A stretch of DNA of 64,000 nucleotides from NCBI RefSeq assembly GCF_040149665.1, contig NZ_JBEFLP010000001.1:2480001-2544000 (forward strand), in the 5' to 3' direction. This stretch comes from Sulfitobacter sp. HNIBRBA3233. Lineage in GTDB: Bacteria; Pseudomonadota; Alphaproteobacteria; Rhodobacterales; Rhodobacteraceae. This document shows, in pieces, positions 14,660 through 32,376 of this stretch. The position numbers and the translations under genes are program-made. The number at the start of each line of letters is the position of its first letter. The stretch's first letter is position 1. A model generated the notes under the pieces. The model saw only the letters and a program-made list of their open reading frames with translations. It made no database searches and was not told the origin of the DNA.

Positions 14660-14759
14660 CGGCGCATGATGTGTCGGATTTGGAACGAAGGCCAGAACCC
14701 GCACGCGCATTTTCTGCATTTTCGGGGAATTGTCTTGCGTGGCTCCGGTGAATCCGCGT

Positions 14760-14945
14760 AACTGGAGAGGCTTGGTGCCCATCCACGGGCCGAAAAGGGA
14801 ATTCAGGAGGAGCATCGCCTCTGATCTGAAGCCGCCCCCGCGACTGTTAGCGGCGAGCCGTTGCCCCGTATGCCACTTACCTCGATGGGTGGGGAAGGCG
14901 GGCAAAGGCACCGACCCGCGAGCCAGGAGACCTGCCAGGCAAGAA
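14760..14945 (+). promoter_or_regulatory. Cobalamin (AdoCbl) riboswitch
   Basis: Matches the conserved B12-riboswitch core in order: GGTGCCC (14774), AAAAGGGAA, GAAGCCGCCCCCGCGACTG (from 14829), CCACT, GGGGAAGGCGGG, and the closing GCGAGCCAGGAGACCTGCC (about 14918-14937). Boundaries are approximate. It precedes cbtB and the 15-kb cobalt/cobalamin operon. In the family, adenosylcobalamin binding lowers expression. The absence of a T-tract downstream and a hairpin at the ribosome-binding site suggest translational control, at least for cbtB. Confidence 0.93.
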
Positions 14946-14957
14946 CGTGTCAGAAAC

Positions 14958-29404: not shown

Positions 29405-29706
29405 AGATGTACGTCTGCACCAGTTGCACCGCGCAGAGCCCCGCGTTGCTGGCACATATGCGCGCCGCCCTGCCCGGGATCACTGTCGAGGGGATCGACT
29501 GTATGTCGGGATGCGCCCGTGCCCAGACCGTGGCCTTCCGTGCGGCGGGCAAGGTCGCCTACCTGTTCGGTGAGATCACCGAGGACGATGTGCCGGACCT
29601 GCGCGGATTTGCCAGCCGCTATGCCGCGTCGCCCGACGGCACCTTTGCGGATGCGCGCGTGTTGGGCGGTTTGCGGCTGAAGGCGCTGGCACGGATTCCG
29701 GGATGA
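29401..29706 (+). CDS. DUF1636 ferredoxin-like protein, copy 2
   Basis: 101 residues from a GTG overlapping the cobA stop. C6, C9 (YVCTSCTAQ) and C34, C38 (IDCMSGCAR) repeat the CX2C...CX3C arrangement of the copy at 16425, and the C-terminal half also aligns by eye (KVAYLFGEITEDDVPDL against KWTYVYGHMTPDDAAEI). Two divergent paralogues bracket the cob genes. A thin-type [2Fe-2S] redox or metal-binding protein is likely; its partner is unknown. It overlaps cobF by ATGA. Confidence 0.75.
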   Translation: MKMYVCTSCTAQSPALLAHMRAALPGITVEGIDCMSGCARAQTVAFRAAGKVAYLFGEITEDDVPDLRGFASRYAASPDGTFADARVLGGLRLKALARIPG

Positions 29707-30449
29707 GCCTGCATCTGACCCTGATCGGCATCGGCACCGGCAACCCCGAGCACCTGACGCTGCAAGCCATCCGCGCGATGAACCGGCAGGACCTGATCCT
29801 GATCCCGCGCAAGGGCGCGGGCAAGGACGATCTGGCGGGCCTGCGCCGCGACATCTGCAACGAGTTGCTGACCAACGACCGGACCCGGATTGCCGAATTC
29901 GACCTGCCGGTCCGTGACGAGACCACGCTGGACTATCGCAAGCAGGTCGACGACTGGCACGATGCGATCGCCGCCGTGTGGCAGGCGACGGTGCTGGCCC
30001 ACGGGGGCGGAAACCGCGTGGCGCTGCTCGTCTGGGGGGATCCGTCGCTTTATGACAGCACGCTGAGAATTGCGGCCCGGCTCGATCCCGCGCCGGAGAT
30101 CGAGGTGATACCCGGCATTACATCGATACATGCGCTGACCGCCGCACATGCCACGGTACTGAACGAAATCGGCGCTCCCTTCACGGTGACCACCGGCAGA
30201 CGCCTGCGCGACGAAGGCTGGCCGCAGGGCGCTGACACGGTCGTGGTGATGCTGGACGCGGGCGGGGCTTTTCGCGAGATCGACAGTGACGGCCTGCATA
30301 TCTGGTGGGGGGCCTATGTGGGGATGAAAGAACAGATCATCGTCGAGGGGCCGCTTGCGGAGGTGGCGGAGCGGATCATGCAAGAGCGCACACAGGCACG
30401 GGCGCGGCACGGGTGGATCATGGATATCTACATGCTCAAGCGGGTGTGA
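29703..30449 (+). CDS. cobF: Precorrin-6A synthase (deacetylating) CobF
   Basis: 248 residues. Methylates C1 of precorrin-5 and removes the acetyl group; found only in the aerobic pathway. Signatures: LTLIGIGTGNPEHLTLQAIRA, DLILIPRKGAGKDDLAGLR in adjoining blocks, and VALLVWGDPSLYDSTLRI. ATG at 29703 overlaps the preceding stop. It is the last gene of the cluster; the convergent arfB ends 42 bases away with only a weak GC hairpin between. Confidence 0.92.
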   Translation: MSLHLTLIGIGTGNPEHLTLQAIRAMNRQDLILIPRKGAGKDDLAGLRRDICNELLTNDRTRIAEFDLPVRDETTLDYRKQVDDWHDAIAAVWQATVLAHGGGNRVALLVWGDPSLYDSTLRIAARLDPAPEIEVIPGITSIHALTAAHATVLNEIGAPFTVTTGRRLRDEGWPQGADTVVVMLDAGGAFREIDSDGLHIWWGAYVGMKEQIIVEGPLAEVAERIMQERTQARARHGWIMDIYMLKRV

Positions 30450-30491: not shown

Positions 30492-30911
30492 TCAGTCCGG
30501 ATCGACGCGTCCGCGCAATGCCTTGACCTCGCCGCGCACTTTCTTGGCCTTCAGGCGGCGTTTTTTCGATCCCAGTGTGGGGCGCGTCGCGATGCGCCGC
30601 TTCGGCGGCTTCAGGGCCTCCTGCACCATTTCTTTCAGGCGCTCGCGCACGATCTCGCGGTTGCGCGCCTGGCTGCGGGTCTCGTCGCATTGCAGAACCA
30701 CCGCGCCTTCCTTCGTCCAGCGTCTGCCGGCAATCCGCTTGAGGCGCGATTTCACCGGTGGCGGCAGCGACGGCGATGTCGCGGCCTCGAACCGAAGTTC
30801 GACCGCCGACGAGGTCTTGTTCACGTTCTGCCCGCCGGGACCCGAAGCGCGGATAAAGCTTTCGGTCATTTCCCAATCCTGCAGGGCGATCTGATCTGAG
30901 ATACGCAGCAT
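30492..30911 (-). CDS. arfB: Alternative ribosome-rescue factor ArfB (YaeJ)
   Basis: 139 residues. Peptidyl-tRNA hydrolase that frees ribosomes stalled on non-stop mRNA. Catalytic GGQ at 26-28 in SGPGGQNVNKTSSAVELRF, followed by a basic, disordered C-terminal tail (KPPKRRIATRPTLGSKKRRL) that enters the mRNA channel in this family. Start placed at MLRISDQIAL (30911); an in-frame start four codons upstream adds MMGI. Monocistronic, convergent with cobF. Confidence 0.9.
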   Translation of the reverse strand: MLRISDQIALQDWEMTESFIRASGPGGQNVNKTSSAVELRFEAATSPSLPPPVKSRLKRIAGRRWTKEGAVVLQCDETRSQARNREIVRERLKEMVQEALKPPKRRIATRPTLGSKKRRLKAKKVRGEVKALRGRVDPD

Positions 30912-30985
30912 GATCCCCATCATAGCGCGGAACGCGAGGGCGGGAAGGGCGTTATCCCGCTACACCCCTGTGAGGAGCCTTTCCG

Positions 30986-31384
30986 ATGTTCAGTTGCCCA
31001 TCCATTATCCAGATCCCGACCACCCGCGCGGATCTTTTCGCCTTTCGCATCACCGGGGAGGTCAGCCGCGAGGACATGTCCGGCATGGCCGACTACATGA
31101 ATTCCGTCTTCGACGCCCATGAAGATAAGGTCGATATGCTGATGATCTTCGACCGCTACGATGGCGCCGAAGCGGGCGCGAGCCTGTCGTGGGAGTCTCT
31201 CAAATCGCGGTTCCGGTCGGTCACGAACGTCGGGCGCTACGTTGTCGTCGGCGCGCCGGAGGCCGCCGAGGACGTCATCAGCATGATGGATCATCTCATC
31301 CCGGTCGAGGCCGAGACATTCGACGAGGAAGCCCCGGCATGGCGCAGCCTCGGCGCGGAGGCCGCAGCCCCGAAAGCCTCCTGA
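30986..31384 (+). CDS. SpoIIAA-like STAS-fold protein
   Basis: 132 residues resembling the SpoIIAA-like family: FAFRITGEVSREDMSGMADYMN, VDMLMIFDRYDGAEAG, and RYVVVGAPEAAEDVISMM. These small cytoplasmic proteins have an anti-sigma-factor-antagonist fold, but most have no known partner. The conserved Ser that is phosphorylated in true SpoIIAA is not evident. ATG at 30986 has AGGAG upstream. It is followed by the terminator hairpin at 31415-31440, which has no T-tract on this strand. Confidence 0.65.
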   Translation: MFSCPSIIQIPTTRADLFAFRITGEVSREDMSGMADYMNSVFDAHEDKVDMLMIFDRYDGAEAGASLSWESLKSRFRSVTNVGRYVVVGAPEAAEDVISMMDHLIPVEAETFDEEAPAWRSLGAEAAAPKAS

Positions 31385-31410: not shown

Positions 31411-31440
31411 AAAAGGGCCGCCCCGGTTCGGGAGCGGCCC
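31411..31440 (-). terminator. Intrinsic terminator of the small minus-strand unit
   Basis: GGGCCGC at 31434-31440 read on minus pairs with GCGGCCC at 31415-31421, enclosing a GC-rich loop; on the minus strand the stem is followed at once by TTTT (31411-31414). On plus there is no T run, so the element fits minus-strand transcription best, though it may stall plus transcripts from the SpoIIAA-like gene. Confidence 0.7.
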
Positions 31441-31510
31441 AATCGAATTGAATAGGAGGCGGGTCGGTTAGACCGTATCCACCTTGGATTTCATCGTACC
31501 AGGGGCTGCC

Positions 31511-31567
31511 CTAGTACGCGCCCTCCAAAGCTGTCCCGACACCTCGCTCCAGTACACTTCTTGACAC
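31511..31567 (-). CDS. Candidate 18-residue small protein
   Basis: GTG at 31567, seven bases after the AGGAGG core of a 12-base perfect Shine-Dalgarno, opens a frame reading VSRSVLERGVGTALEGAY (first residue Met when initiated by GTG) and closing with TAG. No homologue is recognised. The strength of the ribosome-binding site is the main evidence. A further 8-codon frame (MKSKVDTV, 31494 to 31468) follows without an SD. It could be a leader peptide or a dual-function RNA. Confidence 0.35.
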   Translation of the reverse strand: MSRSVLERGVGTALEGAY

Positions 31568-31657
31568 TAGATCACCTCCTTTTCATTTGTTGAACCTAAG
31601 GAATCGTTGCACATAATCTGGGGTGCGCAAAGCATTTTTTGCACCAGATAATGTGAA

Positions 31658-31694
31658 AAAACACCCTGCTGCCCAAACGGGCGGCAGGGTGTTT
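31658..31694 (-). terminator. Intrinsic terminator after yhhQ
   Basis: On the minus strand AAACACCCTGCCGCCC pairs with GGGCAGCAGGGTGTTT around a GTTT loop, giving a long stem with one mismatch followed by a run of T. It lies 28 bases past the yhhQ stop codon. A textbook Rho-independent terminator. Confidence 0.9.
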
Positions 31695-31721: not shown

Positions 31722-32339
31722 TCAGGAGGCGCGCAGGCGCTTCGTGATGACGCGGAAAGGGATCAGCGCGATCAGCGCCAGCGACAGTTTTACCGCCCAG
31801 TCGGCCACCGCCAGCGACACCCAGAGCGGCGCCATCGGGCCGGTGCCCAGCAGCGGCACGGCCTCGCCTGCCCAGGACACATCGGTGCCCGGATGCACAA
31901 AGCTCAGCGCACCCGAGAAGGCCACCGAAAAGAAAATGATCGTATCGACCGTGCTGCCCACAAGGGTCGAGACCAGCGGCGCCTTCCACCACGCGCCGCT
32001 GCGCAGGGCCGCGAAGATGCCGACGTCAAGCATCTGCGCCACAAGGAACGCCAGACCGGAGCCGATGGCGATGCGCATGGTCACGAGCGGCCCGAAGTCG
32101 CCCATGATCTGCGTGCCGATCAGCGAACACAGGATGCCGACCACGAACCCCACCAGAACGACGCGGCGCGCGGCGGCCGTGCCATAGACGCGGTTCATGA
32201 TGTCGGTGACAAGGAAGGCAAGCGGATAGGTAAAGGCGCCCCACGTCAGCCAGTCGCCATAAAGAAACTGAACGAGGATATTGGAGGCCACAACAATGGC
32301 AGCCATCGCAAGAATGCCGGGAAGGTAGGTGCGTGTCAT
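31722..32339 (-). CDS. yhhQ: Queuosine precursor transporter YhhQ
   Basis: 205 residues, six predicted helices, VUT/YhhQ family. Signatures: GAFTYPLAFLVTDIMNRVYG near the N-terminus, FLVAQMLDVGIFAALR, and the late VGSTVDTIIFFSVAF. It imports queuine precursors (preQ0/preQ1) for tRNA queuosine. I start at ATG 32339 (MTRTYLPGILAM), not at an in-frame TTG 32360, because the latter falls inside a candidate preQ1 aptamer. A strong terminator follows the gene. Confidence 0.88.
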   Translation of the reverse strand: MTRTYLPGILAMAAIVVASNILVQFLYGDWLTWGAFTYPLAFLVTDIMNRVYGTAAARRVVLVGFVVGILCSLIGTQIMGDFGPLVTMRIAIGSGLAFLVAQMLDVGIFAALRSGAWWKAPLVSTLVGSTVDTIIFFSVAFSGALSFVHPGTDVSWAGEAVPLLGTGPMAPLWVSLAVADWAVKLSLALIALIPFRVITKRLRAS

Positions 32340-32347
32340 CAGATAAA

Positions 32348-32376
32348 CCGTTTTATGCAAGGGTGCGGCGACTTGG
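32348..32376 (-). promoter_or_regulatory. Candidate preQ1-I riboswitch in the yhhQ leader
   Basis: Read on minus, a 29-base segment fits the H-type pseudoknot of class I preQ1 aptamers. P1 is CAAG (32375-32372) with CUUG (32361-32358). Loop 1 is UCG. P2 is CCG (32368-32366) with CGG (32350-32348). Before the P1 3' strand comes the conserved CACC, with the ligand-pairing C, and the A-rich loop is CAUAAAA. The CGG strand sits 8 bases before the yhhQ ATG, where a ribosome-binding site should be, which implies translational control. P1 is short (4 bp), hence moderate confidence. Confidence 0.5.

Follow-up and report, generated by a model that had tools for sequence, protein, structure and literature searches.

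The Element and Its Surroundings

The window, which is the whole stretch of 64,000 nucleotides from Sulfitobacter sp. HNIBRBA3233 that was analyzed, contains a small gene on the minus strand between a queuosine precursor transporter gene and arfB (table 1). The element combines a near-perfect ribosome-binding site, an 18-codon frame, and a closing RNA fold, and looks like a translated RNA that is built around ribosome loading. The original prediction described a unit flanked by two terminators, and both are present: the upstream terminator has 11 + 4 stem pairs (-28.0 kcal/mol) and a six-U run of which three U lie inside the stem, and the element ends with its own hairpin. The predicted 18-codon GTG frame was likewise found, and the predicted row of small hairpins is present in a refined form that consists of a start-codon hairpin, a stop-codon hairpin, the CUAACCG element, and an internal anti-Shine-Dalgarno (anti-SD). 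The transcript probably starts near position 31600, after a promoter-like stretch that is conserved in relatives (TTG[AC] followed by NA...T at 16-18 nt in 54 out of 87 Rhodobacterales versus 1 out of 87 reversed controls). On the minus strand, UUCAACAAAUGAAAAGGAGGUGAUCUAGUG is the stretch between the promoter-like part and the frame, and a CCCGCCUCC element sits between the CUAACCG element and the terminator.

The fold of the RNA from position 31600 to 31410 beats 200 out of 200 shuffled sequences (z = -4.3). A tRNA or tmRNA identity was rejected after a scan, and no known RNA family scores above its cut-off at the site; the sole such match in the window is a cobalamin riboswitch.

Table 1. 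Positions of the features of the element and of other features in the window.
Feature	Position	Strand	Basis
Cobalamin riboswitch	14756-14953	+	109.5 bits
Tetrapyrrole methylase gene	29703-30446		
arfB, alternative ribosome rescue factor	30492-30923	-	NF006718, 185.4 bits, cut-off 100
SpoIIAA-like gene between element and arfB	30986-31384	+	match in 4/88 Rhodobacterales loci, the window's own included
Intrinsic terminator of the element	31411-31440	-	hairpin 31440-31415 + UUUU
Internal anti-SD CCCGCCTCC, able to pair with the SD	31455-31463	-	conserved core and minimum-energy fold
CUAACCG element	31465-31471	-	motif count in Rhodobacterales
Stop-codon hairpin, CAGC loop	31495-31518	-	covariation versus shuffles
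Micro-ORF VSRSVLERGVGTALEGAY, 18 codons from GTG + stop TAG	31511-31567	-	frame reading and comparison
Start-codon hairpin UCUAGU...ACUGGA	31548-31571	-	pair conservation in Rhodobacterales
Extended Shine-Dalgarno AAAGGAGGTGATCTAG	31567-31582	-	16-nt duplex with the 16S rRNA 3' end; last base is the G of GTG
12-base Shine-Dalgarno (SD) AAGGAGGTGATC	31581-31570	-	sequence read directly
Promoter-like stretch TTTGCGC ... GCAACGATTC	31600-31632	-	window copy placed by eye via alignment to relatives
Upstream terminator of the transporter gene, which insulates the unit	31656-31694	-	stem 31694-31659
Queuosine precursor transporter (Vut_1; TIGR00697)	31722-32360	-	upstream match in 84/88 Rhodobacterales loci

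Distribution of the Element

The searches of related genomes indicate that the element is a conserved gene in many alphaproteobacterial lineages that has so far been only partly catalogued, as a non-coding RNA. Within the genus, a blastn search matched the element in 35 out of 36 genomes, counting that of the window. Within the family, blastn matches were found in 149 out of 248 genomes (some to the terminator only), and the pattern AAGGAGGTGATCNANTGTC is present with at most one mismatch in 182 of them. Among other families of the class, a single genome out of 24 was matched by blastn, by a short terminator match only. A strict pattern identified 91 matches, not checked one by one, in 90 out of 385 genomes of the class (295 genomes had no match), and a backward control pattern displayed 0 matches among the class-sample entries listed. 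In a sample of the phylum, divided by hand, the pattern was found in 76 out of 135 Alphaproteobacteria versus 10 out of 263 other Pseudomonadota, and the control pattern matched in two entries. Because the pattern is strict, the many alphaproteobacterial genomes without a match in the class and phylum samples are not proof of loss. The comparison within the Rhodobacterales, by which the original prediction could be checked, came out in its favor: the element occurs in the 182 family genomes, the SD, the frame, and the stop-codon hairpin are kept, and the hairpin covaries.

The locus set was fetched by an exact 19-base pattern, so that the invariance of the SD and the start within it is given by construction, and loci used in the counts also had to hold an SD-start expression. 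The same-genus blastn, the family blastn, and the Rfam genome searches are free of this selection effect. All p-values are inflated by related sequences.

The ten non-alphaproteobacterial matches were read individually. Eight are unrelated, five of them being the start of one long gene, which we take to be oxidoreductase-like, and three others. Spread to other classes was rejected, as only two alike 18-codon units remained among the ten matched genomes. These two (MSRVKVFGQAAMSEGRSS and MSSVLKIRKSAMSEGRVY; loci L231 and L232 in genomes G674 and G898 of another class) carry the same 12-base SD followed by 18 codons and by a terminator recognized by eye. Within their order, the exact pattern occurs in 2 out of 119 genomes, and within their family 4 out of 59 genomes match with one mismatch allowed, the two extra ones being counted by pattern only. 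Two further loci (L119, minus strand, ~7050, and L150, ~21), on contigs labelled SAR92 and Cellvibrionales, contain AAGGAGGTGATCCAGTGTC and then a terminator by eye; a stop codon is absent before the terminator, which would result in a non-stop mini-mRNA, and the labels may reflect a binning error. Two pattern matches within one genome, a possible duplication, were seen in G047 (C1:805114 and C1:2922049) and in G173. A phage origin was rejected (a search of 50,697 phage records at E 1e-5 gave no match), as was spread by plasmids (with a Rhizobium MAG homologue as the query, 4 out of 72,556 plasmid records matched, one of them over most of the length).

Selection on the 18-Codon Frame

Several features of the aligned relatives argue that the frame is under selection. 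The base before TG, which the pattern leaves free, is A, G, or T in 90 out of 91 class matches (hand count), and the single exception with a C also lacks the next conserved base. A stop is found at codon 19 in 86 out of 88 distinct Rhodobacterales sequences (51 TAG, 19 TAA, and 16 TGA, with no TGG) and is missing in two. Codons 2-18 are free of in-frame stops, while the other two frames hold 21 and 29 (in the first codons this is partly a consequence of the search pattern). The synonymous share over codons 2-12 is 0.438 versus 0.207 ± 0.085, a value that was reached by 11 out of 2000 column shuffles. Codons 13-18 display no coding signal and an opposite trend (z = -1.8), and the synonymous share over codons 2-18 is not significant (reached by 227 out of 2000 shuffles), a sign that RNA pairing shapes part of the frame; codons 16-18 are free to change because the stop-codon hairpin covers them.

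In other orders, where the peptides are of the VSHCHxPRS...TWIVAS type, the distance between the start and a ACCTGGATC-like T-W motif is 30, 33, 36, 39, or 42 nt for 51 out of 54 sequences. It is divisible by 3 in 53 of them, 50 of which have Trp at this codon. The count covers the 54 out of 87 distinct sequences with the motif at two or fewer mismatches; the other 33 are without it. The peptide body differs strongly between orders, and no NCBIfam protein family was found for the peptide at E up to 1 when two 25-residue relatives were scanned. The suggestion that the element encodes a micropeptide has thus gained comparative support from the codon-19 stop, the synonymous share, the start base, and the in-frame T-W motif.

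Selection on the RNA Fold

The RNA fold is also under selection. RNAalifold on the raw alignment recovered few of the hairpin pairs, and the hairpins were then tested by position. For the stop-codon hairpin, ten pairs were tested in 68 out of 88 loci (62 distinct), and 20 loci with the loop out of register were set aside. A total of 85 cells are changed on both sides, versus 24.9 ± 4.7 in shuffles (reached by 0 out of 1000), 86.6% of the cells pair, and slid-strand controls give 12-22 two-sided cells. The number of further pair types, a weaker measure, is 25 versus 21.1 (reached by 17 out of 1000). A hairpin with a CARC loop is present in 68 out of 86 Rhodobacterales (1.1 in shuffles) and in 6 out of 10 deep-branching "MSSE" loci (0.5 in shuffles), where it lies inside the frame and reads ...EQPS.... 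It was further found in 5 out of 32 remaining loci (0.4 in shuffles), but in only 3 out of 77 VSHC loci (2.2 in shuffles) and in 0 out of 12 Bradyrhizobium-type loci (0.3 in shuffles).

The start-codon hairpin has up to 8 pairs, each kept in 73 to 87 of the 87 Rhodobacterales. At positions (-2,+15), C,T is swapped for T,C (Fisher p = 4.6e-9, uncorrected for relatedness); the states are 67 C,T, 12 T,C, 4 C,C, 3 T,T, and 1 C,G, so that one wobble pair is as a rule retained. The motif [CT]TAAC[CT]G occurs in 68 out of 87 Rhodobacterales versus 1 out of 86 stretches located 200 nt further down.

When the window RNA is folded to minimum energy, the internal anti-SD pairs with the SD. A core that pairs with GGAGG is present in 86 out of 87 Rhodobacterales, in 13 of these by G.U pairing (CAUCUCC in 12 sequences and CACUUCC in one), and was lost in one. 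CCUCC itself is found in 73 out of 87, versus 15.4 in shuffles and 17 out of 86 control stretches. It is not enriched in other orders (11 out of 126 versus 19.1 in shuffles), where a different pairing is seen, of codons 2-8 with the post-stop segment: the matched pair beats 90% of mismatched partners in 44 out of 102 loci (~10 expected) and every mismatched one in only 13 out of 102. Among loci with non-canonical 5' ends, 18 out of 58 beat 90% of mismatched partners in the same test. Both the design of the Rhodobacterales and that of the other orders suggest that a late segment of the transcript covers the initiation region.

Pairing with the 16S rRNA and Early Codons

The perfect 12-base SD of the original prediction matches the anti-SD end of the 16S rRNA, and the duplex extends further: with the 16S 3' end of the same genome (ggctggatcacctcctttctaagg), AAAGGAGGTGATCTAG is able to form an uninterrupted run of 16 pairs that includes one G.U. 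A screen of the 9,172 window stretches of 20 bases that hold part of a Shine-Dalgarno identified this as the most stable 16S-end duplex in the window (-27.1 kcal/mol; -23.8 kcal/mol at the next separate site). The 3.92 Mb genome contains the 12-mer at two places, once in the element and once, in reverse complement, at a 16S end. As ~0.5 chance occurrences are expected per such genome (own arithmetic), the single occurrence is not proof by itself and it is the conservation that carries the proof. Among the 63 changes of the 12-mer listed for the family genomes (hand count), 52 are A to G at one position, which retains a G.U pair; the remaining 11 are not pair-keeping, 8 of these being A to C.

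Codons 2-12 (TCA AGA AGT GTA CTG GAG CGA GGT GTC GGG ACA) are among the rarest, falling within the lowest 0.1% of 17,789 eleven-codon windows, and 1 out of 41 gene starts is equally low; the background is given by 41 window genes called by a simple method. Strong initiation in combination with slow early codons would favor ribosome queuing, although an A-rich, unstructured start would need the same letters anyway.

Gene Neighborhood and arfB

The gene order in the Rhodobacterales is transporter, element, and arfB. Among the 81 Rhodobacterales loci that have 1.2 kb of sequence or more, 74 carry arfB downstream on the same strand, and the median distance from the terminator to the arfB start is 49 nt (<=129 nt in 71 out of 79 loci; starts from a simple caller, with two slightly negative values). 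No arfB match was found at 132 loci of other orders (with varying flank lengths), where the downstream genes are varied and often on the opposite strand. The ORF callers are crude, and the names of the neighbors rest on separate protein matches, including NCBIfam scores. A CCCTTCACCTT-like motif at two or fewer mismatches precedes arfB in 16 out of 80 loci, versus 0 out of 80 inside arfB, and may represent the gene's own promoter, a weak suggestion since in two of the 16 (L157 and L175) the motif is the anti-SD segment of the element itself and the majority of the rest come from close relatives of the window. At four loci of other orders (L082, L083, L100, and L138; three Bosea and one Methylobacterium) the next gene is on the same strand 135-286 nt downstream and presumably encodes RNase R.

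Relation to Rfam CC2171

Based on a sub-threshold hit to CC2171 (RF01867) and a shared anatomy, the element is placed as the Rhodobacterales branch of a wider RNA family and a distant relative of CC2171 that falls outside the family under Rfam's rule. Its score is 32.1 bits against a cut-off of 75 (E = 3.7e-5 in a 451-base search) and is the same genome-wide. At E <= 0.01, RF01867 matched 45 out of 190 class genomes, 7 of them above the cut-off, and two of 14 control genomes (Caulobacter vibrioides and Deinobacterium chartae), one of them above the cut-off. Among 18 related loci, six score above the cut-off (Rhizobium MAG, Brevundimonas, Methylobacterium, Bosea, Microvirga, and Falsiroseomonas). 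The original prediction, which recognized no described family, therefore holds as far as the cut-off is concerned, but not with respect to relatedness.

The element and CC2171 share the start AACAA..GAAAGGAGGUGAUCYAGUGUC, a similar length, and the terminator, and the CC2171 5' core GAAAGGAGGUGAUCCAGUGUC is present in the window element with one inserted A and a C to U change. The stop-codon hairpin and internal anti-SD of the window differ from the stem of CC2171, CAUUGUC / GACAAUG, in which the first codons pair with the pre-terminator segment and for which 4 out of 7 pairs are non-standard in the window. Rfam types CC2171 as an sRNA and the accessible part of the entry mentions no ORF. The available part of a Caulobacter study reports that intergenic ncRNA regions are not translated, with the exception of two previously predicted ncRNAs (PMC4117421). 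No description of the element was found in the literature by sequence or by the name CC2171, a search with sparse coverage of subscription papers from which absence from print is not claimed; among the papers listed for the name, only the Rfam 15 paper is on RNA families judging by title.

Interpretation of the Element

The element is most plausibly a structured small mRNA that forms a unit of its own and has a very strong ribosome site, an 18-codon frame, and a fold-back closure (probability roughly 0.6). Comparison of the relatives shows the conservation of the gene, selection on the frame, the stop-codon hairpin, and the pairing-preserving changes, and we infer a transcript that is made, translated, and able to switch between an open and a closed state. 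Against this reading speak the missing coding signal in codons 13-18, the divergence of the peptide body between orders, the two sequences that have no stop at codon 19, the small number of loci in which the matched pair beats every mismatched one, the 11 SD changes that do not retain pairing, the class genomes in which the strict pattern is absent, and the report of untranslated ncRNA regions in Caulobacter. The transcript of ~190 nt would present the window's strongest 16S-pairing site followed by the GTG frame, and the last segment before the terminator would close over the initiation region, in the Rhodobacterales by means of the internal anti-SD and in many loci of other orders by pairing with the first codons. 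Translation would open the RNA and closing would stop translation; translation would be favored around the time of transcription, and the product would most likely be a peptide of 18-26 residues made in limited or regulated amounts.

The same features would suit an RNA that engages or titrates 30S subunits, as had also been considered originally. Such a decoy, or sensor of ribosome availability, would bind free 30S subunits via the 16 pairs and elongate slowly, with the peptide as a by-product and the open versus closed state reporting the number of idle 30S subunits. The strongest 16S pairing among the screened stretches, the retention of pairing in most of the listed SD changes, the rarity of codons 2-12, the location of the start codon inside a hairpin, and the divergence of the peptide body between orders all point this way. 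However, the frame survives changes in length and many loci of other orders retain the Trp, which is more than a pure decoy needs, and rare A-rich codons also fit the avoidance of structure near the start, leaving this explanation with a minor chance of being correct. It is rather unlikely that 30S loading itself is the conserved function, with a self-closing RNA acting as a sensor or titrator of free ribosomes and arfB located beside it in the Rhodobacterales; this proposal draws on the complementarity to the whole free 16S 3' end, the slow codons, and the stop codon that lies inside a hairpin in the Rhodobacterales.

A role as a leader, the third possibility raised by the original prediction, would involve arfB: the terminator would limit read-through into arfB in the Rhodobacterales, and translation of the micro-ORF would set the level of read-through. 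The position of a firmly identified arfB on the same strand, a short distance downstream of the terminator in most Rhodobacterales, agrees with this, but arfB is matched at none of the 132 other loci, the downstream gene there is often on the other strand, an opposite-strand gene separates the element from arfB in the window itself, and the motif before arfB is possibly the gene's own promoter, making an attenuator improbable. A non-coding sRNA that acts in trans, pairing with mRNAs through an exposed anti-SD or another loop while the ORF is incidental, is highly improbable given the selection on the frame and a CCUCC count that is not above chance in other orders. The classification of CC2171 as an sRNA, the internal CCUCC of the Rhodobacterales, and the alphaproteobacterial anti-SD sRNAs SisA-D described in the accessible part of one study (PMC12559287) are nevertheless in line with it.

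What the present analysis adds to the Rfam record is that both the frame and the fold are selected, in a gene that is kept in 182 out of 248 family genomes and is filed, for some lineages, as a small RNA. According to the available part of one report, 75.4% of Caulobacter genes are without an SD (PMC4117421). If the element is translated, it would be a micropeptide gene of very wide conservation whose initiation site comes close to the physical limit of SD pairing. It would provide a natural test of the effect of very long SD pairing, and it may connect the supply of ribosomes with their rescue.

Comparison with Known Systems

The mRNAs of type I toxins (hok and aapA1) encode a short peptide, have an SD that is closed over a long range by the 3' part, and possess their own terminator. 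The element likewise combines a predicted short peptide with a probable fold-back closure of the SD and its own terminator. Unlike type I toxins, it usually occurs once in a genome and is conserved across an entire family, and the Rhodobacterales peptide is by inspection not hydrophobic, VSRSVLERGVGTALEGAY of the window being charged and short rather than a hydrophobic membrane peptide. A consensus promoter scan revealed no antisense antitoxin, the sole promoter-like site on the plus strand of the region (31590-31617) pointing away from the element.

The Caulobacter RNAs SisA-D (alphaR8) and the sponge CrfA use SD-like or anti-SD-like sequences, as far as the accessible part of the source shows (PMC12559287), and in this respect resemble the element. 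In the same portion of that source the core of SisA-D is UUUCCUCCCU and the matching site of CrfA is a G/A-rich loop, whereas the element matches the 16S end and carries a frame under selection. The "intergenic 134" of P. denitrificans and the R. pomeroyi table gave no usable link to the element. Sinorhizobium meliloti SEP1 (23 aa, pI 4.18) displays the top translation efficiency among the candidates in the available part of its report (PMC10117765) and, judged from its pI, is unlikely to be the homologue. The same part describes rnTrpL/peTrpL of Sinorhizobium, a short ORF on a small RNA with a reported dual function (PMC10117765), which is leaderless and tied to trpE, whereas the element has a strong SD and is free of a fixed downstream gene outside the Rhodobacterales.
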